Source of the DNA: Inediibacterium massiliense
GTDB taxonomy: Bacteria; Bacillota; Clostridia; Peptostreptococcales; Thermotaleaceae
Reading direction: 5' to 3'
Length of the DNA stretch: 64,000 nt
Assembly: GCF_001282725.1 (NCBI RefSeq)
Contig: NZ_LN876584.1
Location: 187,122-251,121 of the forward strand
Shown here: positions 33,563 through 46,288 of the stretch, piece by piece
Layout: every line of letters starts with the position of its first letter
How positions within the stretch are numbered: the stretch's first letter is position 1
Made by a program: the position numbers and the translations under genes
Notes under the pieces: model-generated
Databases searched by the model: none
What the model was told of the DNA's origin: nothing
Seen by the model: only the letters and a program-made list of their open reading frames with translations

Positions 33563-33949
33563 CTATCTCATATCCCAATAAGAATATCCTCTACTGTGTG
33601 GATGATCTCGTACATCTAAGTGAGTAAATTTCTTATACACTCCTATTCCTGTAAAACCCATCTTGGTTGCAATCTTTGCAATCTCTTCTGGAGAAAATCC
33701 GTTTACTCTAATATCTACAGCTTTTCCCAATACATGCTGACTTCTTGGAGAACCTCCTACTTTTTTATTATAAGAAGGGGAACGATACCCAGAATTGATG
33801 ATCATAGGTCTTCCTATTTTGTCTCTCATTTCTTGAAGGAGTCTTATAAGTCTGTAATCATATATAACTTCATTTTTTCCTTCTTTACATACAAACTCAG
33901 AGAGTTTGAAATTTTTAGATACATTCATATTTGATACAACATTAAACAT
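33563..33949 (-). CDS. Phage-type M15 D,D-/L,D-peptidase (tailocin lysin)
   Basis: 128-residue peptidase_M15_3 family protein, the kind used as an endolysin catalytic domain. Zinc-site residues are in SGYRSPSYNKKVGGSPRSQHVLGKAVDIRV (His and Asp) and THLDVRDH (His). There is no wall-binding domain or signal peptide, so release requires the adjacent holin. GGAGG seven bases before the ATG overlaps the holin stop area. Last gene of the tailocin operon: it would lyse the producer to free particles. Confidence 0.88.
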   Translation of the reverse strand: MFNVVSNMNVSKNFKLSEFVCKEGKNEVIYDYRLIRLLQEMRDKIGRPMIINSGYRSPSYNKKVGGSPRSQHVLGKAVDIRVNGFSPEEIAKIATKMGFTGIGVYKKFTHLDVRDHPHSRGYSYWDMR

Positions 33950-33951
33950 TT

Positions 33952-34362
33952 TTAGTCCTCCATTTCATTATTTTTTTCTTTCATTTTTTTGAGTACCTTT
34001 ACAATAAAAGCAGGCAAAGGAACTCCTAAGCCTGCAATATTTTCTGTAATGGATATACCTTCATTTGCTATATAAAAATAAATGGTCATGGTTCTAAAGA
34101 CAGGATTTTGTGATGCGACTGCCAAATCTAGCTGATGAGCAAGAATAATGACAATAAAAATAGCCGCCTTTTTAAGCAGCCCCTTGTGTCCCATCTCACT
34201 GGATATTTCTTTGTTTTTATATCCTTTCATTAAACCTGTTATATAATCCATTATAATCAATATTACTAAAATATGAATAATTCTATTCCACTCTCCTATC
34301 AATATGCTCATACCAGTCCCTAAACCTACTATGATCATATTTATACTATTTTTTATATCCAT
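33952..34362 (-). CDS. Phage holin (TcdE/Cph1-like family)
   Basis: About 136 residues with three to four membrane helices, including the family motif IIMDYITGLMKGYKNKEISSEMGHKGLLKKAA, followed by VPLPAFIVKVLKKMKEKNNE with a charged cytoplasmic tail. Forms membrane lesions at the end of particle assembly. ATG 34362 (MDIKNSI) suits AAAGGACG better than ATG 34368. Immediately upstream of the lysin. Confidence 0.9.
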   Translation of the reverse strand: MDIKNSINMIIVGLGTGMSILIGEWNRIIHILVILIIMDYITGLMKGYKNKEISSEMGHKGLLKKAAIFIVIILAHQLDLAVASQNPVFRTMTIYFYIANEGISITENIAGLGVPLPAFIVKVLKKMKEKNNEMED

Positions 34363-34460
34363 TTGCATCGTCCTTTATTAAATTTTTGATGATTCATCTG
34401 GTTGTTAAAAACATTATATTGTTTCTATTTTCTATATGAGGATTACTTCACATAATTTCC

Positions 34461-36745: not shown

Positions 36746-37024
36746 TTATATTTTTTTAATCCCCATGGTGGGACTAACCTTTATATTTTCTACTACTTGT
36801 GTAGGTACTTGATCAGTGATAAAAAAATAAAATGTTCCTTTTTTTCTTTCTCCTACAGGCACATTTTTTTCAGCCACTATTATTTCTGTTTTATCTTCTA
36901 TTTTATTTTGTAGCTCTGTAATTTCATTATCTATTTTATCCATGTTCTCATTGATCACTTTAATATCTGCTGTTTCATGATCTAAAGGTTTTTTTAACTT
37001 TATGTTTCTAGTTAGCTCTGGCAT
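36746..37024 (-). CDS. Small tail protein upstream of the fibre genes
   Basis: 92 residues beginning MPELTRNIKLKKPLDHETAD, with a coiled helix (INENMDKIDNEITELQNKIED) and a beta-rich end. The start resembles the N-terminal tail-attachment region of some phage fibres. ATG 37024 has AAGGTGAT upstream and overlaps the YmfQ-like gene end by 13 bases; the longer frame to 37105 is unlikely. Precise role unknown. Confidence 0.65.
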   Translation of the reverse strand: MPELTRNIKLKKPLDHETADIKVINENMDKIDNEITELQNKIEDKTEIIVAEKNVPVGERKKGTFYFFITDQVPTQVVENIKVSPTMGIKKI

Positions 37025-37560
37025 CCTATCACCTTCCTTGTTCTCACTTCTTTCCAATTCATCTTCTTTACCTTTCCCCAAGTTGTCTGTCTCATTTGTA
37101 ACCATGTAATATAAAGAAATTCATATAATATTTCTAGATGTGCAGGTTTAATTTCTTCAATAGCATTTTTTAAATCCTCTATATTCGGAGGCACTCCATA
37201 AACACTAGTAAATATAATATTGATCCTGCCATCAAAAGTAACCTCCACATCTCCATTTGTATAAGCATCTGCTACTAATTTGATAAGATTTCTATCTACT
37301 TTGCCTGTTCCTCTCCATTTGGACTTTATAGTGCTCCTTCTATCTTCATAGGTTTTATCTCTATCTGTTTGAATTCCAAGCTCTTTTTCATATATATCTA
37401 GTGTCCAAGTAGCTGTCTCTATAAATAATTGTCTTTCTAAATCCTTTAAATCTAATGTGATTTGATCTAATTCTTTTCCTTGTACTTTCATGAGTTCATG
37501 AAATATCTCTGATTTTTGCTCATAAAAGGGTAAATATTTTAACATTCTATTTTTAAGCAA
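37012..37560 (-). CDS. YmfQ-like tail protein (DUF2313)
   Basis: 182 residues of the DUF2313/YmfQ family, which follows baseplate J in Mu-like and PBSX-like phages. Evidence: LKYLPFYEQKSEIFHELMKVQGKELDQ and the DRDKTYEDRRSTIKSKWRGTG segment. Probably part of the baseplate wedge or fibre connector (gpI-like). Overlaps its neighbours on both sides. Confidence 0.85.
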   Translation of the reverse strand: MLKNRMLKYLPFYEQKSEIFHELMKVQGKELDQITLDLKDLERQLFIETATWTLDIYEKELGIQTDRDKTYEDRRSTIKSKWRGTGKVDRNLIKLVADAYTNGDVEVTFDGRINIIFTSVYGVPPNIEDLKNAIEEIKPAHLEILYEFLYITWLQMRQTTWGKVKKMNWKEVRTRKVIGCQS

Positions 37561-38623
37561 TGATAACCCCTCCTAGCACTGGAACTGCCTCTTCATGAAT
37601 CATGATATTTTTCTTTTCATTATTGATAGTCAAATCAGAAAAATCCAGTATCCCTTTTGAATCTAATACAATACTTGCAATCTTATTGTAACTAACCTTG
37701 TTTTCTCTAAAGGCAATTTCTTTTAAATATAATTTTATATTTTCCTCTACATCTTTTTGAATCACTTCTTGTAAAATAGCAGTATCTTTCTCTGTAAGAT
37801 GAAAGGATATATTTAAAAGTACAGGCTCTGCACTTACTACTTTACAAAAGGCTCCAATAGGAGCTTTGCCTTCCCCTAATCCTTTGGATCCAGGATCAAT
37901 ATATTCTTGTACTTCTTTAGCAAGCTCTATATTTGGTTTTTTCTCTTTATCAATAACTACTACCTTTACCGTATTCGGCTGATTATTAGGTAGAGGTATA
38001 ACCCTTGCATCTCCTACTCCTGTTACTTCCTTTGCCCAATTGAGATAATGGTATTTATTTCCTGATGTGGCAGGAGTTCGAATACGCTCATAGTATCTTT
38101 GTAAAAGCTCTTCATCACTTTCTGCATCATAACCATTTGTAAACTCTTTTGGATTTATTACCTTTTTAATACCATTAAGAGTCACAGGAAAATATCTAAT
38201 GGCTTCTGCTGGAACGTTCCCTATGATTCCATATACTTCACACTTTACCCATACCTCTACTTGTCCTTTATCATCTATAGTTTTATCTTCTTGTACGATA
38301 AAATCTACTGTATCACTAGAGACTTTATCATTTATACAAATCTTCGCTCCTTTTTTTCCTATAATTGTTACATAGCCTGTAGCTTGAGTGGCTAGTTTCC
38401 TTTTGATTCCTGTTTTCTCATATACCCTTTGCTCTAATTCTGTTTCTTTTAAGTTTTTGATTTCTAATTTATCTTCTAAATTTTTCATATCCTTTTTCAT
38501 ATACTCTAGCTCAATGGCAACAGGCTTTAGGGCATCATAAAAAAAAGACCCTTCTGATCGATCATAAATATTAGATACATTTTTAATCATTCTATCTTGT
38601 ATCACTTCTTTATCCTCTAGCAT
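37553..38623 (-). CDS. Baseplate J-like protein (XkdT-like)
   Basis: 356-residue baseplate wedge protein: GSFFYDALKPVAIELEYMKKDM at the N-terminus, a central jelly-roll-like region with ATGYVTIIGKKGAKI, the GYDAESDEELLQRYYERIRTPATSGNKYHYLNWA signature of gp47/J proteins, and GVGDARVIPL. Contractile-tail specific, which supports an R-type particle. It overlaps the XkdS-like gene by 14 bases. Confidence 0.92.
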   Translation of the reverse strand: MLEDKEVIQDRMIKNVSNIYDRSEGSFFYDALKPVAIELEYMKKDMKNLEDKLEIKNLKETELEQRVYEKTGIKRKLATQATGYVTIIGKKGAKICINDKVSSDTVDFIVQEDKTIDDKGQVEVWVKCEVYGIIGNVPAEAIRYFPVTLNGIKKVINPKEFTNGYDAESDEELLQRYYERIRTPATSGNKYHYLNWAKEVTGVGDARVIPLPNNQPNTVKVVVIDKEKKPNIELAKEVQEYIDPGSKGLGEGKAPIGAFCKVVSAEPVLLNISFHLTEKDTAILQEVIQKDVEENIKLYLKEIAFRENKVSYNKIASIVLDSKGILDFSDLTINNEKKNIMIHEEAVPVLGGVIIA

Positions 38624-39065
38624 AAGATTTCACCTCCTTATTAAAAGTTTCTTCATTTATTAAATTCACCTTAAAAGATAAATTTATATAAGATGCAACC
38701 TTCTTGATTTCAAAATGATAAACAGAAGCAATCATAGGATGTTTCATAAGAGATTGACTGATTTCTCTTTTTAATTCTGCTTCTATAAAATCCTTTGGAA
38801 GATTTTTTCCTATAATAAGATCTTCTACAATCACGCCATATTCATTTTTATCTTTTCTTTGATAGATTTTATATTTATATTTTTCTGTTCTTAATACTTT
38901 ATCAATCCATCCCTTAATTGCGTCTACACCTAATACCTCTACTAATCTCCCATCCTTTATGACAAACTCCCCTTTATCAAAGTCAAATAAAAAAGACTTA
39001 CCCATCCTTGGCAAATCCTTTGGCTTCTCTTCTTTCATTTTTAAATTTGCTACTTGTGGAAACAT
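38610..39065 (-). CDS. XkdS-like baseplate protein (DUF2634)
   Basis: 151 residues of the DUF2634 family: SFLFDFDKGEFVIKDGRLVEVLGVDAIKGWIDKVLRTEKYKY matches the gp25/XkdS type of small wedge protein. Part of the XkdQ-R-S-T baseplate block; stop and start overlap neighbours. Confidence 0.87.
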   Translation of the reverse strand: MFPQVANLKMKEEKPKDLPRMGKSFLFDFDKGEFVIKDGRLVEVLGVDAIKGWIDKVLRTEKYKYKIYQRKDKNEYGVIVEDLIIGKNLPKDFIEAELKREISQSLMKHPMIASVYHFEIKKVASYINLSFKVNLINEETFNKEVKSYARG

Positions 39066-39478
39066 TACAAACTCACCCCCTTGTCTAGTAGAAAGTAGGT
39101 TTGTTCGTCTGTAGTAGGAATCAATATTACTTGATCTCCTTTTTTCAAGGTATCTGTATATTTGAATGTTCCTTTCATACTGACATTTCCTTCTACATTT
39201 CCATTTACTACTTCATAGGTAGTAGGAACGTTAGATTTTAATGTAATTGATCCACTTTCTCCACTAGTGCTTTCGTCTCCTTTAATCTCAAATTGTCTTT
39301 CATAATCCTCTAAAACATGAGCTCCTATAATCAAATGCTCTTTCGTCAATATAATCTTATCCCCTAAATATACTTGAATATTAGGAGGGGGACTAATGAT
39401 CGTTCCTACTTGTGGCCCCAAGTAAGGTCTATTGTCCCTTTCTTTAAATAAACTTGCCAATTCACTAATTCCATCCAT
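39065..39478 (-). CDS. XkdR-like protein (DUF2577)
   Basis: About 137 residues of the DUF2577 family, MDGISELASLFKERDNRPYLGPQVGTIISPPPN, with an OB-like beta domain and KKGDQVILIPTTDEQTYFLLDKG. ATG 39478 overlaps the XkdQ stop as TAATG and has GGGGGTGATG upstream, so the longer reading to 39562 is rejected. Likely a spike/hub component. Confidence 0.87.
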   Translation of the reverse strand: MDGISELASLFKERDNRPYLGPQVGTIISPPPNIQVYLGDKIILTKEHLIIGAHVLEDYERQFEIKGDESTSGESGSITLKSNVPTTYEVVNGNVEGNVSMKGTFKYTDTLKKGDQVILIPTTDEQTYFLLDKGVSL

Positions 39479-40446
39479 TACATCACCCCCAATCCTAATT
39501 GCATTTTGTGGATTCCATTTTGAACAGTATGGGTTACATCCTTGATTAAATATTTCCCACAAATGCCTGTGACTGGTTCTTGGATTGTAATGGTTCTTCC
39601 TGCCCTTACTTTATCATCACCTAACATTTCTACACTATTTTCTTCAAATATTTTTCCTAATTCCTTTAACATATTGTTTGCAATATTTTTTGCCTGAATC
39701 TTATCCTTTTTTTCTATACTGACTACATCTTGAAGGAGTCCATATTCTCGAATCAACTTTTTATCTCCTTCTGTGATGATCAAATGATCATCTGATATAA
39801 CTTGGATACTATTTTTCATCTCTTCTATAGATCTTTTGCGACTGGGATTAGAAATAGCACTACTTACATCATAAGGCTGTATATTTTGTGCCAATTGAAA
39901 GGTTCCTTGTACCTCTAGCTCTTGTTGTTTTTCTATATACAATTTTCCTGCTCTCATTTCCATCCTATACTTGGTTTGTGTACTTTTATGGGCAATATCT
40001 AAAATATCTTCAATAATTTCACTTACAGCTTTATCATTATATATTTTATGGATAATCGTAGGAATAGGAGCTATAGATCCAATAGAAATGGAGAAATCAT
40101 TTAAAATCGTTTCTATAGCTTTCTTTCCTGTGGTTTTATTAAACTGATAAACGGCTTTACTTTTATTCAAATAAAAAGCACAATCAAAGCAGCTATAATT
40201 GATCTTGCCTCTTCCATTTTTTTCTTCAGATACTACAATTCCTCTACATATTTCATCTTTGTTTTTTAATATTATCAAACTTCCTAGCTGTACTGGATTG
40301 ATTGGAAAATATCGATCATCATTAAAAGCAATATCAAAGTCAAGCTGTTGTCCTAGCTCACTGATATTGCTTCTCCACTGAATATTTCCAACCAAAGGGG
40401 TAATATCTGTCTGTATATTATTTTTTATACTCAATAGCTGATACAT
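39478..40446 (-). CDS. XkdQ-like tail hub protein
   Basis: 322-residue protein of the XkdQ/YqbQ (late control gpD-like) group forming the baseplate hub. It shows NIQWRSNISELGQQLDFDIAF, GSLIILKNKDEICRGIVVSEEK, RAGRTITIQEPVTGICGKYLIKDVTHTV. No peptidoglycan hydrolase domain is fused. Confidence 0.88.
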   Translation of the reverse strand: MYQLLSIKNNIQTDITPLVGNIQWRSNISELGQQLDFDIAFNDDRYFPINPVQLGSLIILKNKDEICRGIVVSEEKNGRGKINYSCFDCAFYLNKSKAVYQFNKTTGKKAIETILNDFSISIGSIAPIPTIIHKIYNDKAVSEIIEDILDIAHKSTQTKYRMEMRAGKLYIEKQQELEVQGTFQLAQNIQPYDVSSAISNPSRKRSIEEMKNSIQVISDDHLIITEGDKKLIREYGLLQDVVSIEKKDKIQAKNIANNMLKELGKIFEENSVEMLGDDKVRAGRTITIQEPVTGICGKYLIKDVTHTVQNGIHKMQLGLGVM

Positions 40447-40889: not shown

Positions 40890-42224
40890 TTATGCATATC
40901 TATAGTTATTTGCCATTGATTGTTTTAATCTTGGAACCAACTCATTTAAAATCTCTGTAGTTGACTTGTTTGTACCGCTAATATTAATAGTGTATTTGTT
41001 TTGGTTTTTAATAGAATGATCTACTCGAGTACCCATGATCTTTGTTCCTCCGTTGGCTACTTTATTAGCTTTTGGAGTAATTTTATTATTCTTATAAAGC
41101 TTATAAACATTGTTTCCAGATACCTTTGTTGATGATTTGATGTGGTTTTTTTGTTGAATTCTACTTTTACTACGTCCTTTATTGGGTAACCTTCTCATCT
41201 TCCCACCATTTTTTCCTGATTTTTTAATGGTAGATAAGGATCTTTTAGGTGCAAAGATATTTTTTACTGTATCTATCATCTTTCCTGTACCCTTATCTAA
41301 TTTTTTTTGTATATGTTTTGGAGCAGCTTCATAAAAAATGCTCCCTGCAAAGTTTACAGCAGAACCTACCGTAGATAATACCGTTCCTACTCCTGGTAAG
41401 ACTTGCGTTGCATCTAAAGCCATATCTGTTGCTGCAAGAGCTGATAAAAATTTACTATCTCCTTTTGCAATAGTCTTAATATTTTCTGCGTATCCTAAAA
41501 CAGGGAAAAATGATTTTTTAAATGTTTTTCCTATACTTAGTAGTTTTGGAAACTTTGTAGATGTTTTGGATAAAATAGTTGTATATTTCCCATGAATCAT
41601 CTCTTTTGTAATCTTACCTAAAGTCTTTGCTTGAGATGTATAATTTTTATTTCTCAATCTCCCAATCATATTTACTGATTTTTCAACTAATATTTTACTT
41701 GTTTTTCCTATCTCATTTTTTAACTTAGTATATCTTCCTGATGCCATCTGTTTTGTAATCTTTGCTATGGTCTTCGCTTGTTTATTCAAATCTTTCCCAC
41801 TAAATTCTCCTATTTTTTTCATTACTTTATAAGACATATCCCCTAATTGATTTTTATATCTACTAGTTACTTTAAAAATTGCCTTTTTACCTACTTCACC
41901 TATTTTGTCCTTTGTATCATCATGAGTTGCTATATTTTTCATATGCTCAGTAAAATCCTGATTTGTGTCATAAAAATTGACTCTCTCTTTTATTTTCTGC
42001 CCTATGTGATCTAAAGAAGGGTCAATATATTTTTTCGCAAGCTGTGATTTCATTTCATTTAGCTTTTTAATAGGCCCTAGATTAGATATTAATTTATCAA
42101 TAGGCTCACTGATAAAATCTGTGATTTCATCTTTTATAAAAGACTTAAATTTTTCTGCTTGTTTTTTGGCAAATTCACCATGATAATTATCGTCAACTCT
42201 CTCAGTTAAGCTTCCATCGCTCAT
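40890..42224 (-). CDS. Tail tape-measure protein
   Basis: 444 residues, mostly helical and lysine-rich, with repeated segments (SRYKNQLGDMSYKVMKKIGE, AKTIAKITKQMASGRYTKLK and AKTLGKITKEMIHGKYTTI), a central hydrophobic region (ALDATQVLPGVGTVLSTVGSAVNFAGS) and a C-terminal KSTTEILNELVPRLKQSMAN typical of tape-measure ends. It is short compared with phage tape measures, predicting a tail of order 60-70 nm by the usual 1.5 angstrom per residue rule. The gene starts 28 bases after the direct repeat of element C. AAAGGTGGTG precedes the ATG. Confidence 0.8.
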   Translation of the reverse strand: MSDGSLTERVDDNYHGEFAKKQAEKFKSFIKDEITDFISEPIDKLISNLGPIKKLNEMKSQLAKKYIDPSLDHIGQKIKERVNFYDTNQDFTEHMKNIATHDDTKDKIGEVGKKAIFKVTSRYKNQLGDMSYKVMKKIGEFSGKDLNKQAKTIAKITKQMASGRYTKLKNEIGKTSKILVEKSVNMIGRLRNKNYTSQAKTLGKITKEMIHGKYTTILSKTSTKFPKLLSIGKTFKKSFFPVLGYAENIKTIAKGDSKFLSALAATDMALDATQVLPGVGTVLSTVGSAVNFAGSIFYEAAPKHIQKKLDKGTGKMIDTVKNIFAPKRSLSTIKKSGKNGGKMRRLPNKGRSKSRIQQKNHIKSSTKVSGNNVYKLYKNNKITPKANKVANGGTKIMGTRVDHSIKNQNKYTINISGTNKSTTEILNELVPRLKQSMANNYRYA

Positions 42225-42508: not shown

Positions 42509-42686
42509 ATTCTTCTATTTCTCTATTCATCATCTCTTCAATTTCTTCCATTTCCTTTTCATAAAATGCCATCAAAAGAATCAATTCCCCTCTTGGCATA
42601 TTGTAGATCACAGACGGTCTAATTCCTTTGGTTTTCCAAAAATAATAAATCATTTGAGTCAAACCATCTGTGTCAATTAGTTTTTT
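42507..42686 (-). CDS. -1 frameshift extension of the tail assembly chaperone (GT-like)
   Basis: At the end of the upstream chaperone gene the zero-frame codons GTA AAA AAC TAA contain the canonical slippery heptamer A-AAA-AAC (complement of 42680-42686). Slipping back one base enters a 57-codon open frame LIDTDGLTQMIYYFWKTKGI... ending in a Glu-rich tail at 42507, giving a predicted 190-residue fusion. This reproduces the conserved G/GT frameshift organisation of tailed phages just before the tape-measure gene. The extension has an internal ATG but no ribosome site. Confidence 0.8.
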   Translation of the reverse strand, partial: KKLIDTDGLTQMIYYFWKTKGIRPSVIYNMPRGELILLMAFYEKEMEEIEEMMNREIEE

Positions 42687-43078
42687 ACTTCTTCTACAGC
42701 TCCACCATCAAACCCGCTTAATTCTCCAATCATATTGTATAAAGTCAGAAGCTCTCCAGGAAGAAGAAGCTTTCTTACTAAATCCTTTGGTGTATATACA
42801 TGAAATTTATCCATTAATTCCTTTGTTTTAAACCTTGGGTTTTTCACTCCTTCTATAACAGTCATAAGCTGTAATTCCCCAATGTTTATATTTTCTTGAT
42901 TTTCATCCATTGCCATTTCTTGAATTTCCTCCATTTTATCAGGAGTTAATGCTTCCACTTGAAAAATTACTTTTTCTCCTGTCATAGAAGATAACCTTTT
43001 TATTTCTACTTCTTTACTAGGCTTTTTTAATTTCTTTTCATCTAATTGAAGCAACAAATCTAATGTATTCATATTCAT
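42677..43078 (-). CDS. Tail assembly chaperone (XkdN-like)
   Basis: 133 residues, acidic, between tube and tape-measure genes: LLLQLDEKKLKKPSKEVEIKRLSS, FQVEALTPDKMEEIQEMAMDE and ENINIGELQLMTVIEGVKNPRF match the XkdN/TAC-like family. Acts in cytosol to load the tube onto the tape measure. Ends at a slippery site for the GT-like extension. Confidence 0.86.
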   Translation of the reverse strand: MNMNTLDLLLQLDEKKLKKPSKEVEIKRLSSMTGEKVIFQVEALTPDKMEEIQEMAMDENQENINIGELQLMTVIEGVKNPRFKTKELMDKFHVYTPKDLVRKLLLPGELLTLYNMIGELSGFDGGAVEEVKN

Positions 43079-43083
43079 CCTCC

Positions 43084-43530
43084 TTATTCTGGCTGAATCA
43101 TATCAGCAAAATCATAGTCTGTAAATGTAAATGGACATTCTACTTTTCCTAATGCTTTTGTCTCAAAATTCATAAGAGTTAAATCATCAAAGCTTACTTC
43201 TTTGAGTACAACTCTTTCTGATTGACCATTTACTGTATCTGGATCAGCTAATTTTGAAACAATAGTAAACCTTACATCTTTTCCTTTTTTAATCATATCT
43301 CCTAGCTTGATTGCCATCCTAGAGTTTACTTTGTGCATCTTTAGTGTTCCTTTTCCTTCCCATCCTGTAATCTTTGTATCCTTTGCCAAAACGCCACACA
43401 TATTTACATCTTCTTTTTTCAATGTAATCTTTGCCTCAAGTCCTGTTAACTCACTGACCTTATCTCCATCTAACCAAATTTCTCCCCATGTACCATTAAT
43501 CACTCTATTTCCAGCTATTTTATTTGCCAT
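43084..43530 (-). CDS. Tail tube protein (XkdM-like)
   Basis: 148 residues: INGTWGEIWLDGDKVSELTGLEAKITLKKEDVNMCG and GKGTLKMHKVNSRM fit the XkdM tube family that polymerises into the inner tube of contractile tails. It lies 12 bases after the sheath gene, the normal contractile-tail order. Confidence 0.9.
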   Translation of the reverse strand: MANKIAGNRVINGTWGEIWLDGDKVSELTGLEAKITLKKEDVNMCGVLAKDTKITGWEGKGTLKMHKVNSRMAIKLGDMIKKGKDVRFTIVSKLADPDTVNGQSERVVLKEVSFDDLTLMNFETKALGKVECPFTFTDYDFADMIQPE

Positions 43531-43542
43531 ATTGATTCCCCC

Positions 43543-44598
43543 TTACATAAATATTTCCATTGTTAAGTCTTCCATTGCATCTAAAAACTTTACTTTTGCC
43601 TTAATAAATACTTCACTTCCAGTATTGTACTCTTTGATTTCTTGTTCCTTTAATGCTTCTACCTCTACACCTTTTTTCATGAGATATAATCTTTGCCCAA
43701 GCATATCAATCTCGGCCTTGCTATCATAATCTGGGTCTAATACATCTATTCTTTCTAATTCCTCAAAATAAGCATTCAGTGCAGCTAAAAACAATACTTT
43801 ATTATCATAGGAATTTACAACTTTTCCTACATAAGATCCATCAAAAGTATCATGAATATCATCTCTCATCAGATCTACTGCATCTACAATCTTAATTTTC
43901 TTAAATTCTTCACCCTTTGTAGCTGTAGTAGTAGTCAAAGAATTGACTCCCCTGCCTATTTTGATTTTTTCTCCATCATGGATAAGAATTAATTTTCCAG
44001 CATCAATATCTTTATCTGGATTTTCTGATTCTGTAATGCTTTCTAGTTCATTAAGTGCATAATAAGTAGAGCTTCTTGTAAATGGAAGTCCTGCAAGCAC
44101 TCCAGCAATCCTACAAGTATATTGACTTGCGCTATAAGTCATATCTCCTACCTTTATACCTTCTGTTGCAAAATTGATAATTCCTTCATGATCTGCCTCT
44201 ACATTGGGAAGTACTGCTTTAAATGTCTTTTTATTGTTTTGTCTTTGTTCTTTAATCCATGAAACAATATTTTGAACTGCTTCTTGTGAAATATCTGGAA
44301 TAGAAAGATAATTCCACTTTTTATTTTTCAATCTTTTTAAAGCTACTGCATAATCTTCTTCCTTTCCAATTCTTTCAATAATAATTTTGCTAGGTATTCC
44401 CATGAGCGTTTTTTCAATGTAGTCTCTGTTCTCTTTTGTCCAGTTGTCTTTTGCTACTTCATCGATAGATCTATATTCTACTGATTCTAAATCCACTTTA
44501 TCCTCTTTTAAAATAAGTGCTACAATTCCTCTAGCACTTCTTTGAATTGCAGTTGTTCCTTGTGTTTTAAAGTTTATTAATATTTGTGGTAAACCCAT
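43543..44598 (-). CDS. Contractile tail sheath protein (XkdK-like)
   Basis: 351-residue sheath monomer: the N-terminus MGLPQILINFKTQGTTAIQRSARGIVALILKE, a middle SQYTCRIAGVLAGLPFTRSSTYYALNELE, a GVNSLTTT turn and a C-terminal DMLGQRLYLMKKGVEVE region characteristic of XkdK/FI-like sheaths. Its presence shows an R-type (contractile) rather than F-type particle. About 80-90 residues shorter than PBSX XkdK, as in diffocin-like clusters. Confidence 0.92.
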   Translation of the reverse strand: MGLPQILINFKTQGTTAIQRSARGIVALILKEDKVDLESVEYRSIDEVAKDNWTKENRDYIEKTLMGIPSKIIIERIGKEEDYAVALKRLKNKKWNYLSIPDISQEAVQNIVSWIKEQRQNNKKTFKAVLPNVEADHEGIINFATEGIKVGDMTYSASQYTCRIAGVLAGLPFTRSSTYYALNELESITESENPDKDIDAGKLILIHDGEKIKIGRGVNSLTTTTATKGEEFKKIKIVDAVDLMRDDIHDTFDGSYVGKVVNSYDNKVLFLAALNAYFEELERIDVLDPDYDSKAEIDMLGQRLYLMKKGVEVEALKEQEIKEYNTGSEVFIKAKVKFLDAMEDLTMEIFM

Positions 44599-45038
44599 TA
44601 AATCTCCTCCTTTATTCTTAAATCCTTCATCATTTCATAATTTTTATAACCATAGACCTTCATCTGATCTATTGTATCTATAAAAGCTATTTCAAAAGAA
44701 AACACCAATACTTTATCTACCATTTTTACTGTAGTTTCTTGAATAGTAAATTTCCTATCCTCTACTTCTAAAACACAAGAAAAAATATCCTGAAGTTTTT
44801 CTAATATCTCAATATTTTCTTTGATGGTTTGGCTTTTTGAAAAGTACTCAATCTTTATTTTGATTTTTTTATTTTGATGATATCTGCTTTCTAACGTAGT
44901 AGATACAGGTAAAACTTCAATAAAAAATGCAGGTCTATCCAATGATTCTCCCTGCATGGTTTCATAGAAATAACTCGTATCAAAATGACTCTTTAATATT
45001 TTTAATACAGTCTCTTGAATTTTTAATAATGTAATCAT
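44598..45038 (-). CDS. Tail terminator-like protein (DUF6838 type)
   Basis: About 146 residues: an N-terminal helix (LLKIQETVLKILKSHFDTSYFYE), PAFFIEVLPVSTTLESRYHQNKKIKIKIEYF, alpha/beta fold of tail terminators or minor tail proteins encoded before the sheath. The start was set to the ATG at 45038, which overlaps the upstream TGA (TGATG) with AAGGAG five bases before. Caps the sheath/tube end (inference). Confidence 0.7.
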   Translation of the reverse strand: MITLLKIQETVLKILKSHFDTSYFYETMQGESLDRPAFFIEVLPVSTTLESRYHQNKKIKIKIEYFSKSQTIKENIEILEKLQDIFSCVLEVEDRKFTIQETTVKMVDKVLVFSFEIAFIDTIDQMKVYGYKNYEMMKDLRIKEEI

Positions 45039-45367
45039 CATCTCTCCTTCCACAAGCTCCTTCGTTCCATAAGTTTTTCCTCTATTAAATGATTTAATAA
45101 ATGGCTTATCTCCATGAAATCCATTAATGTTTTTTCATTAGAGTCTATAGACTGATTGGTTTCTTTGTGTAGTTCTTTCTCCATTGCTTCTAATTTTTTC
45201 TTAAGTTTTAATACATTTTCTTTATAAGCATCCCTTTGTTGGATCACTTGATTGAGTCTAGTTCTTGGAACAAATTGATTATTATTTAAGAGTATTTTTT
45301 GATTTTTTGTTTTTTCCTTTACTTCTTTGTATAAACTTTCTCCTAGGATTTCCTTTAACTCTTTCAT
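45038..45367 (-). CDS. GP20 scaffold-like protein fragment
   Basis: 109 residues starting MKELKEILGESLYKEVKEKT, with LLNNNQFVPRTRLNQVIQQRDAYKENVLKLKKKLE, which resembles the start of phage minor structural GP20/scaffolding proteins. A capsid scaffold has no obvious use in a head-less cluster, so it is either a relic or recruited to tail assembly. It is the first structural gene after promoter module P2. AGGAG lies nine bases before the ATG. Confidence 0.6.
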   Translation of the reverse strand: MKELKEILGESLYKEVKEKTKNQKILLNNNQFVPRTRLNQVIQQRDAYKENVLKLKKKLEAMEKELHKETNQSIDSNEKTLMDFMEISHLLNHLIEEKLMERRSLWKER

Positions 45368-45429
45368 TAAAATCATCTCCTTTTATTCCTTTACGTGTTT
45401 TACGTGTAACGCCACGATTCATTCTTCTC

Positions 45430-45488
45430 ATTTTAAATTATAATAGATTCATTTTTATTATATCGGCCTAATTTCGGCACTTTTTCGG
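45430..45488 (-). promoter_or_regulatory. Promoter module P2 of the tailocin structural operon
   Basis: A 59-nt block with a 24-nt upstream motif CCGA-A-AAAGTGCC-N8-GCC (complement of 45465-45488), a 20-base gap and ATTATAATTTAAAAT (complement of 45430-45444). Identical architecture to module P1 at 46100-46158. It overlaps the last codons of the regulator gene and points at the scaffold-like gene. No -35 consensus is present, which suggests an activator or alternative sigma. Confidence 0.75.
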
Positions 45489-46001
45489 TATATCCAATGC
45501 AGATATCTCTAATAAAATACTGTTTTTGAGTATTTTATAGATTTTAGTTAAAGCCTCATTTCTTATTTCTCTACATTGTCTTTCTTCTATATTTACTTCA
45601 AAAGTAATATACCTCCAAATTTTCTTATCTACATACTTCATCTTGATAATTTTTTTCTCTAAATCTGTAAGGCTTTCTACTGCATTGTGAATTCTTCTTA
45701 AAAATCTTTCCATATGCCTTTTTTCAAATTCAAGTAAATCAATCATTTCTTCTATTTCTAAATCCTTCAATACCTGTGTCTCTGTTTTAGAAAAAATTTG
45801 ATTGCTCCTTATAAATTCTTCATAATTGATACCCTTTAAACTTAAATATTGCATATCTTTTAAATCTCCGATCTGAAGTTCTATTTCTTTTATTTTTGCT
45901 TCATATTGTTTTAAGTTTTTAAGAGTATTTTCCACTCCCTTCATACTTATTTTTTTGTTACGCTTTTGTATTTTTTCTTTTTCTAAACTTTGTGTATACA
46001 T
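45468..46001 (-). CDS. Sigma-region-4-like activator of the tailocin (Xpf/ArpU-type)
   Basis: 177 residues. The N-terminal two thirds are coiled and charged. The C-terminal part has SLTDLEKKIIKMKYVDKKI and VNIEERQCREIRNEALTKIY, the pattern of sigma-70 region 4.2 helix-turn-helix seen in late-gene activators such as Xpf of PBSX and ArpU. No region 2 is visible, so it probably acts as an activator or partial sigma. It is transcribed toward the tail genes, its 3' end contains promoter module P2, and P1 and an SOS promoter lie upstream. Confidence 0.78.
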   Translation of the reverse strand: MYTQSLEKEKIQKRNKKISMKGVENTLKNLKQYEAKIKEIELQIGDLKDMQYLSLKGINYEEFIRSNQIFSKTETQVLKDLEIEEMIDLLEFEKRHMERFLRRIHNAVESLTDLEKKIIKMKYVDKKIWRYITFEVNIEERQCREIRNEALTKIYKILKNSILLEISALDIPKKCRN

Positions 46002-46099: not shown

Positions 46100-46158
46100 A
46101 TTTTAAAGTATAATATATATTTTTTACCAATTTAGGCATACTTGTGGCACTTTATCGG
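46100..46158 (-). promoter_or_regulatory. Promoter module P1 upstream of the tailocin regulator
   Basis: Complement of 46135-46158 reads CCGA-T-AAAGTGCC-N8-GCC; 20 bases later comes ATTATACTTTAAAAT (complement of 46100-46114). Total length and internal spacing equal those of P2. Its direction would give a transcript of the regulator gene, implying positive autoregulation if the regulator recognises the motif. Confidence 0.72.
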
Positions 46159-46192
46159 AACTTTTCCTCCAAATATTTTAGATATATAGAAA

Positions 46193-46223
46193 ATTATACC
46201 ACATTTTTTCGAACATGTGTTCG
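46193..46223 (-). promoter_or_regulatory. LexA (SOS) box over an extended -10 promoter
   Basis: CGAACATGTGTTCG at 46210-46223 is a perfect Gram-positive LexA operator (CGAAC-N4-GTTCG). On the minus strand it is followed by TGGTATAAT (extended -10, TATAAT at 46193-46198); the box covers the -35 position. Transcription would pass through P1 into the regulator gene, so tailocin expression should respond to DNA damage. Confidence 0.85.
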
Positions 46224-46240
46224 TTTATTCTAAAAAAATA

Positions 46241-46271
46241 AAACTTAGCTCAAATCAAATGAACTAAGTTT
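46241..46271 (-). terminator. Terminator of the lipoprotein gene
   Basis: AAACTTAG / CTAAGTTT stem, extended by TTCA/TTGA pairing, followed by a T-rich tract on the minus strand. It insulates the SOS promoter from the upstream gene. Confidence 0.75.
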
Positions 46272-46288
46272 TTTTCTTATTTTATTTA

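Follow-up and report, generated by a model that had tools for sequence, protein, structure and literature searches.

A LexA-switched late activator with predicted positive feedback would drive a headless tailocin operon in Inediibacterium massiliense

Because tailocin production kills the producer, the holder of the switch decides whether such an element is a phage or a weapon of its host. Which switch, then, governs the tail operon found in the window, i.e. the whole stretch of 64,000 nucleotides of I. massiliense analysed here? The reading that we favour from the sequence, with a probability of roughly 0.87, is that a late activator switched by LexA, with feedback, drives a headless tailocin operon, and that host LexA is the only visible switch.

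The operon extends on the minus strand from 45376 down to 33563 (Table 1). It carries the genes of an R-type tailocin, i.e. contractile sheath, tube, baseplate and fibre, together with a lysis cassette. No match to a capsid, portal or terminase was found in the operon, nor did head-gene profiles give any. By its gene content the locus is a headless R-type tailocin.

Table 1. Features of the tailocin locus, in positions of the window.
Feature	Position	Strand	Remark
Intrinsic terminator, 13 pairs	46240..46272	-	2 terminator-like sites found vs shuffle mean 0.1
LexA operator CGAACATGTGTTCG	46210..46223	.	10/10 consensus arm positions; kept in relatives
P0 extended -10 (TGG-TATAAT)	46193..46201	-	TATAAT 46193-46198, TGn 46199-46201; segment TGGTATAATTTTCTAT
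P1 activator site CCGATAAAGTGCCACAAGTATGCC	46135..46158	-	putative; precedes regulator gene; two half-sites one helical turn apart
P1 -10 (TATACT)	46107..46112	-	22 nt from activator site
Late-gene activator, 177 aa, PHROG 36	45468..46001	-	C-terminal sigma-region-4-like HTH
P2 activator site CCGAAAAAGTGCCGAAATTAGGCC	45465..45488	-	putative; overlaps 3' end of regulator gene, faces tail operon
P2 -10 (TATAAT)	45437..45442	-	22 nt from activator site
Coiled-coil protein, first gene of tail operon	45038..45376	-	weak scaffold-like match
Tail terminator	44598..45053	-	PF20765, E 2e-23
Contractile tail sheath (phrog_1480)	43543..44598	-	E 2e-141
Tail tube	43084..43530	-	profile match
XkdN-like tail assembly chaperone	42677..43078	-	profile match
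Probable short tape measure	40890..42224	-	by position only; no family match
Tail protein (phrog_400)	39478..40446	-	profile match
Baseplate genes (phrog_120, phrog_6, phrog_521)	37012..39065	-	profile match
Tail fibre segment	36195..36728	-	profile match
Holin	33952..34368	-	profile match
Endolysin	33563..33949	-	profile match

An earlier note on this DNA had claimed an exact Firmicute SOS operator over the -35 region of an extended -10 promoter facing the regulator gene. The 14-mer is indeed present, both arms perfect, and the geometry on the minus strand bears the claim out. Read toward the regulator, the sequence runs CGAACACATGTTCG-AAAAAATG-TGG-TATAAT, with eight bases (N8) between operator and TGG. 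In the 64,000-nt window the operator thus lies about 11 nt from TATAAT, on its upstream side, and therefore overlaps the -35 position of this promoter (P0), which points at the 177-aa regulator gene. The predicted P0 start is near 46186. The leader to the ATG at 46001 would measure about 185 nt, close to the 190 bases of the note, and traverses P1 as the note had it. The terminator insulates P0 from the upstream lipoprotein gene.

By itself the box is not surprising: CGAACN4GTTCG occurs once in the 3.5 Mb genome (the tailocin box), about 0.7 being expected by base composition, and the backwards control pattern occurs three times. GAACN4GTTC, with 19 occurrences vs 21 for the backwards control, is no commoner. 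The significance of the tailocin box comes from its position and its conservation. Most of the 19 occurrences are intragenic and one is within a terminator-like repeat; the promoter-placed ones that could be assigned in the whole genome belong to lexA (2), recA (1) and the tailocin regulator (1). Exact boxes at recA and lexA are what the note had proposed to look for. In addition lexA has CGAACAGACGTTTG covering its own -35 region, and the uvrB box, CGAACAAATGTTTG, differs from GAACN4GTTC by one mismatch. The note would have abandoned its claim for want of a LexA gene; the genome encodes a full-length LexA (251 bits), which aligns with solved LexA structures and displays the motifs of an autocleaving LexA (Ala-Gly, Ser and Lys), and it also encodes RecA. 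The sequence marks of a LexA (SOS) regulon of Bacillota are found, i.e. an operator over the promoter, full-length LexA and RecA, and the same operator class at core SOS genes. Among the boxes of lexA, recA, uvrB and the tailocin, only that of the tailocin has both its CGAAC and GTTCG arms intact; by analogy, this suggests tight repression and late release.

The same genome holds two genes encoding a LexA DNA-binding domain alone (C14:976115, L003, and C14:139689, L004). A LexA-like box, CGAACGTACGTTTT, overlies the promoter of the former. Proteins of this kind might occupy SOS operators in competition with LexA, and would not be cleaved.

Five more genomes of the family, including Anaerophilus nitritogenes, a Marinisporobacter MAG and Geosporobacter ferrireducens, encode close homologues of the regulator, with 63-93% identity. 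Upstream of four of the five there is a GAACN4GTTC, at -219 to -221 from the ATG in three cases and at -466 in Geosporobacter. In these four relatives the box stands 9-11 nt ahead of a TATAAT, itself preceded by TGG. The extended -10 segment TGGTATAATTTTCTAT is identical at 16/16 positions in three relatives. In the two more distant leaders that can still be aligned the segment shows these 16/16 identities and the box is kept at 12/14 positions, with GAAC and GTTC of both arms intact; the remainder is 46-52% identical. This conservation of box and -10 across diverged leaders is, among what can be read from sequence, the strongest evidence for an operator. In the fifth genome, G003 (L083), a close relative of the regulator has P1-type sites and no LexA box; LexA input is therefore not universal in the clade.

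The regulator matches phrog_36 'transcriptional regulator' (E 1e-20) and phrog_248 'transcriptional activator' in profile searches, and so belongs with the ArpU/RinA/Ltr-like phage late activators. With 21.8 bits for a cut-off of 31.9 (TIGR01636) it was not filed as RinA, and it is also below the cut-off for a full ECF sigma factor. A profile built from 30 family members matches sigma factors (best E 3e-6), and region 4 is the part matched every time. In the structure model (30-sequence alignment, pLDDT 81) a helical domain comes after a long coiled coil. This C-terminal domain fits the -35-binding domains of sigma factors at about 0.9-1.6 A over 57-65 residues, and it is also similar to phage proteins annotated as 'sigma-70 region 4'. 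Foldseek returned no PDB entry at E <0.001 for the model; the structural evidence used is this local fit of the C-terminus to region 4, alongside the independent profile search. A first model, built on six closely related sequences, was of low quality (pLDDT 59.5) and was left out of the structure search. A SigN-like factor would have regions 2 and 4. As the region-4-like part alone was found, the regulator is not a whole sigma factor; on the model, it should be an activator standing in at the -35 region.

Where would it act? P1 and P2 have CCGAWAAAGTGCCRMAAKTAKGCC in common, i.e. two half-sites one helical turn apart. In a search of the whole genome allowing two mismatches, the putative site AAGTGCCNNAANTANGCC is exact at P1 and P2 alone, and there is no other match with at most one mismatch. 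The spacing from site to -10 is 22 nt in each case checked. P1 is retained in relatives, Geosporobacter having two copies.

From the operator, the promoter, lexA and recA, the domain type of the regulator, the sites, their spacing and conservation, all of them seen in the sequence, we infer a circuit that runs from LexA binding through induction by damage and activation by the regulator to feedback and lysis, as follows. In the undamaged cell LexA would occupy the operator over the -35 region of P0, and the late activator would not be made. Upon damage RecA would trigger LexA self-cleavage and P0 would fire from its extended -10, giving a transcript that carries the roughly 185-nt leader with P1, and the regulator. 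The latter would bind the two half-sites, which at both P1 and P2 reach to about -35, and recruit the main RNA polymerase. P2 would serve the genes for structure and lysis; since P1 is located downstream of P0 and ahead of the regulator gene, positive feedback would follow. The two-step switch through P1 and P2 that the note had proposed finds support in the sequence, but the note had overlooked this feedback, P1 preceding the regulator itself.

We compared 101 sheath loci, i.e. the window and 100 others. Head genes identify 63 of them as prophages, and the activator was found in 42 of these. An operator lies within 600 bp of the activator in none of these 42 prophages and in 7 of the 23 headless loci with an activator (Fisher 3.5e-4, on counts that are not independent because related genomes, close relatives included, share ancestry). 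The chance expectation is 0.003 per locus. Five of the seven belong to the family of the window and two to another family (genus g90, L094 and L098); by genus, the operator is present in 4/11. Thirteen headless loci from four genera, among them the Clostridioides diffocins (with the CD1363 protein as sheath), show a different arrangement: an XRE repressor gene is divergent to the activator, in most cases accompanied by a gene for an ImmA/IrrE-type peptidase, and the activator has no box. The modules were called with Pfam HTH_3 and Peptidase_M78, the Clostridioides ImmA-like gene being below the cut-off. Activator box and XRE module occur together in 0/23 headless loci, and 3/23 have neither. 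Counted by genus, this mutual exclusion is suggestive. The LexA-SOS reading of the regulator is supported, but the note had missed that the LexA operator takes the place of the divergent phage-type repressor of related tailocins.

GAACN4GTTC is not enriched overall in sheath loci (11 vs 18 for the control). The box of L131 and the pair of L158 are away from the activator, and those of L107, L128, L138, L156 and L166 are within coding sequence. In L088 (G067) a box precedes the phrog_36 gene by 429 nt, but at the promoter of a divergent gene for a LexA DNA-binding domain; it was therefore dropped and 8/24 became 7/23. That gene, a 68-aa ORF limited to this domain, is about 14 kb upstream of the sheath. 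In G077 (C78 and C77; L045, L085) and G042 (C46, C52) activator and sheath are on separate contigs, so the activator promoter is not tied to the operon there.

The box of the window could be read otherwise. It might be a chance match or a small terminator, leaving P0 unregulated: the base composition alone would give nearly one such palindrome in the genome, and a terminator search lists the palindrome, which has T's after it on the plus strand, among terminator-like sites. However, the palindrome is conserved together with the -10 where leaders have diverged, its position relative to the -10 is fixed in relatives, and a separate 13-pair terminator stands just upstream on the minus strand. We regard this reading as highly improbable. 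It is also very unlikely that SOS acts mainly via a phage-type XRE/ImmA module elsewhere in the genome, with LexA in a secondary role. Although that design is found in Clostridioides diffocins and other relatives, and a phage-type module in the Listeria monocin (PMC6872733), the interval from the upstream chromosomal genes to the regulator is free of XRE/ImmA genes, in the window as well as in the remaining LexA-type loci; the window lacks the divergent repressor gene that a design controlled by PrtR or XRE/ImmA would have at the activator.

A last reading, unlikely in our opinion, would have the operator bound chiefly by a non-cleavable protein limited to the LexA DNA-binding domain, or by another LexA-like repressor, so that the operon would not simply be an SOS gene. 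The two such genes of this genome, one with a box at its promoter, and the similar gene of L088 speak for it. Against it, full-length LexA is present, the lexA and recA boxes are of the same class as the tailocin box, and the box is conserved in family members.

The logic of this circuit is already known. On pBS32 of Bacillus subtilis the gene of SigN (ZpdN) is preceded by a LexA-repressed SigA promoter and then by a self-activated promoter (PMC6751061). Common to both systems, by prediction in the tailocin case, are a LexA-repressed promoter, a self-activated promoter between it and the gene, and a positive feedback. The outcome with SigN is lethal after mitomycin C (PMC6751061), and presumably so for the tailocin. 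But SigN is a whole ECF-like sigma factor, as shown by in vitro transcription, whereas the tailocin regulator would act with a region-4-like domain, and the target here is a tailocin operon. Because the SigN logic is known and searches of the open-access literature turned up no tailocin activator described as having a LexA operator, what is new is limited to a variant: LexA at a tailocin activator is a new version of this circuit.

Other elements offer partial likenesses. Of the tailocin designs on record, those of R-pyocins (PMC10598620) and of the Listeria monocin (PMC6872733) rely on dedicated repressors. The diffocins of Clostridioides difficile (sheath CD1363, PDB 8v3t) are SOS-induced (PMC6088184), and share with our locus the R-type, the sheath family and a phrog_36 activator heading the operon; their regulator is nevertheless transcribed divergently from genes for an XRE repressor and an ImmA-like protein, and has no LexA box. 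The in silico LexA regulon of C. difficile names no diffocin gene in the part of that report available (PMC4234289). The Listeria monocin is likewise a headless tail element and SOS-induced, through protease cleavage of a cI-like repressor with the MpaR metalloprotease (PMC6872733), but no cI-like/MpaR module is seen in the window. In R-pyocins the activator PrtN is held down by the SOS-cleaved PrtR (reviewed in PMC10598620). A tailocin-operon activator under an SOS-cleaved repressor is also predicted here, with host LexA in place of PrtR, a dedicated repressor encoded by the locus. Lastly, LexA controls antirepressors in Gifsy prophages (PMC3121763) and, in the accessible portion of the report on phage GIL01, acts at the lysogenic promoter (PMC4551915). 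As far as these texts extend, host LexA is in both a direct switch of a phage-derived element, but its target is an antirepressor or the lysogenic promoter and not a tailocin late activator.

Was the switch exchanged more than once? The g90 loci and the Clostridioides diffocins have common neighbours (a foldase-like gene and a gene for a 138/139-aa membrane protein) and the common gene order activator, terminator, sheath. In Clostridioides the membrane gene is separated from the activator by the XRE and ImmA-like genes, neither of which is present in g90. The g90 box, CGAACAAGTGTTCT or CGAACAGATGTTCT, is just downstream of the -10, a placement unlike that in the family of the window. A tree of the sheaths places the LexA-type loci in different, supported clades, with three label changes or more. 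The different box positions and the separate clades suggest more than one origin, or more than one retention, of LexA control.

Boxes also occur beside XRE repressors. In L114, at -1625 relative to the sheath, a perfect CGAACATGCGTTCG separates the TATAAT of an ImmA-type peptidase gene from its ribosome site; the gene adjoins an XRE repressor, and in this single case LexA control of an antirepressor protease is possible. In L134, at -2652, AGAACATATGTTCG is placed after GGTATAAT and before the start of a 47-aa ORF (MDLNGIFAIKINGEVVYKNNFLKTNTKK...) that has an XRE gene as neighbour. This ORF, also a single case, is a candidate for a LexA-controlled small antirepressor, by analogy with those of Gifsy phages (PMC3121763). 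Both loci suggest an intermediate wiring.

We lean, with some reserve, towards the view that host LexA replaced the phage-type repressor in clostridial R-tailocins at least twice, i.e. in the family of the window and in a second genus with the diffocin site, wiring the weapon directly into the host SOS regulon, and that elsewhere it seemingly became attached one step earlier, to the ImmA gene of L114 or the 47-aa ORF by the XRE repressor of L134. Direct LexA control of the activator, combined with loss of the phage repressor, would be the sign of a domesticated weapon. With one site available both with and without the repressor module, the matched loci would allow a phage-type switch to be compared with LexA for the threshold at which a lethal SOS output is set off, its timing and its leakiness.

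The operon itself can also be rearranged: in L083 and L086 (G003 and G010) the activator is followed by an XkdT-like baseplate gene and fibres, and the sheath lies 5.7-7.6 kb downstream.
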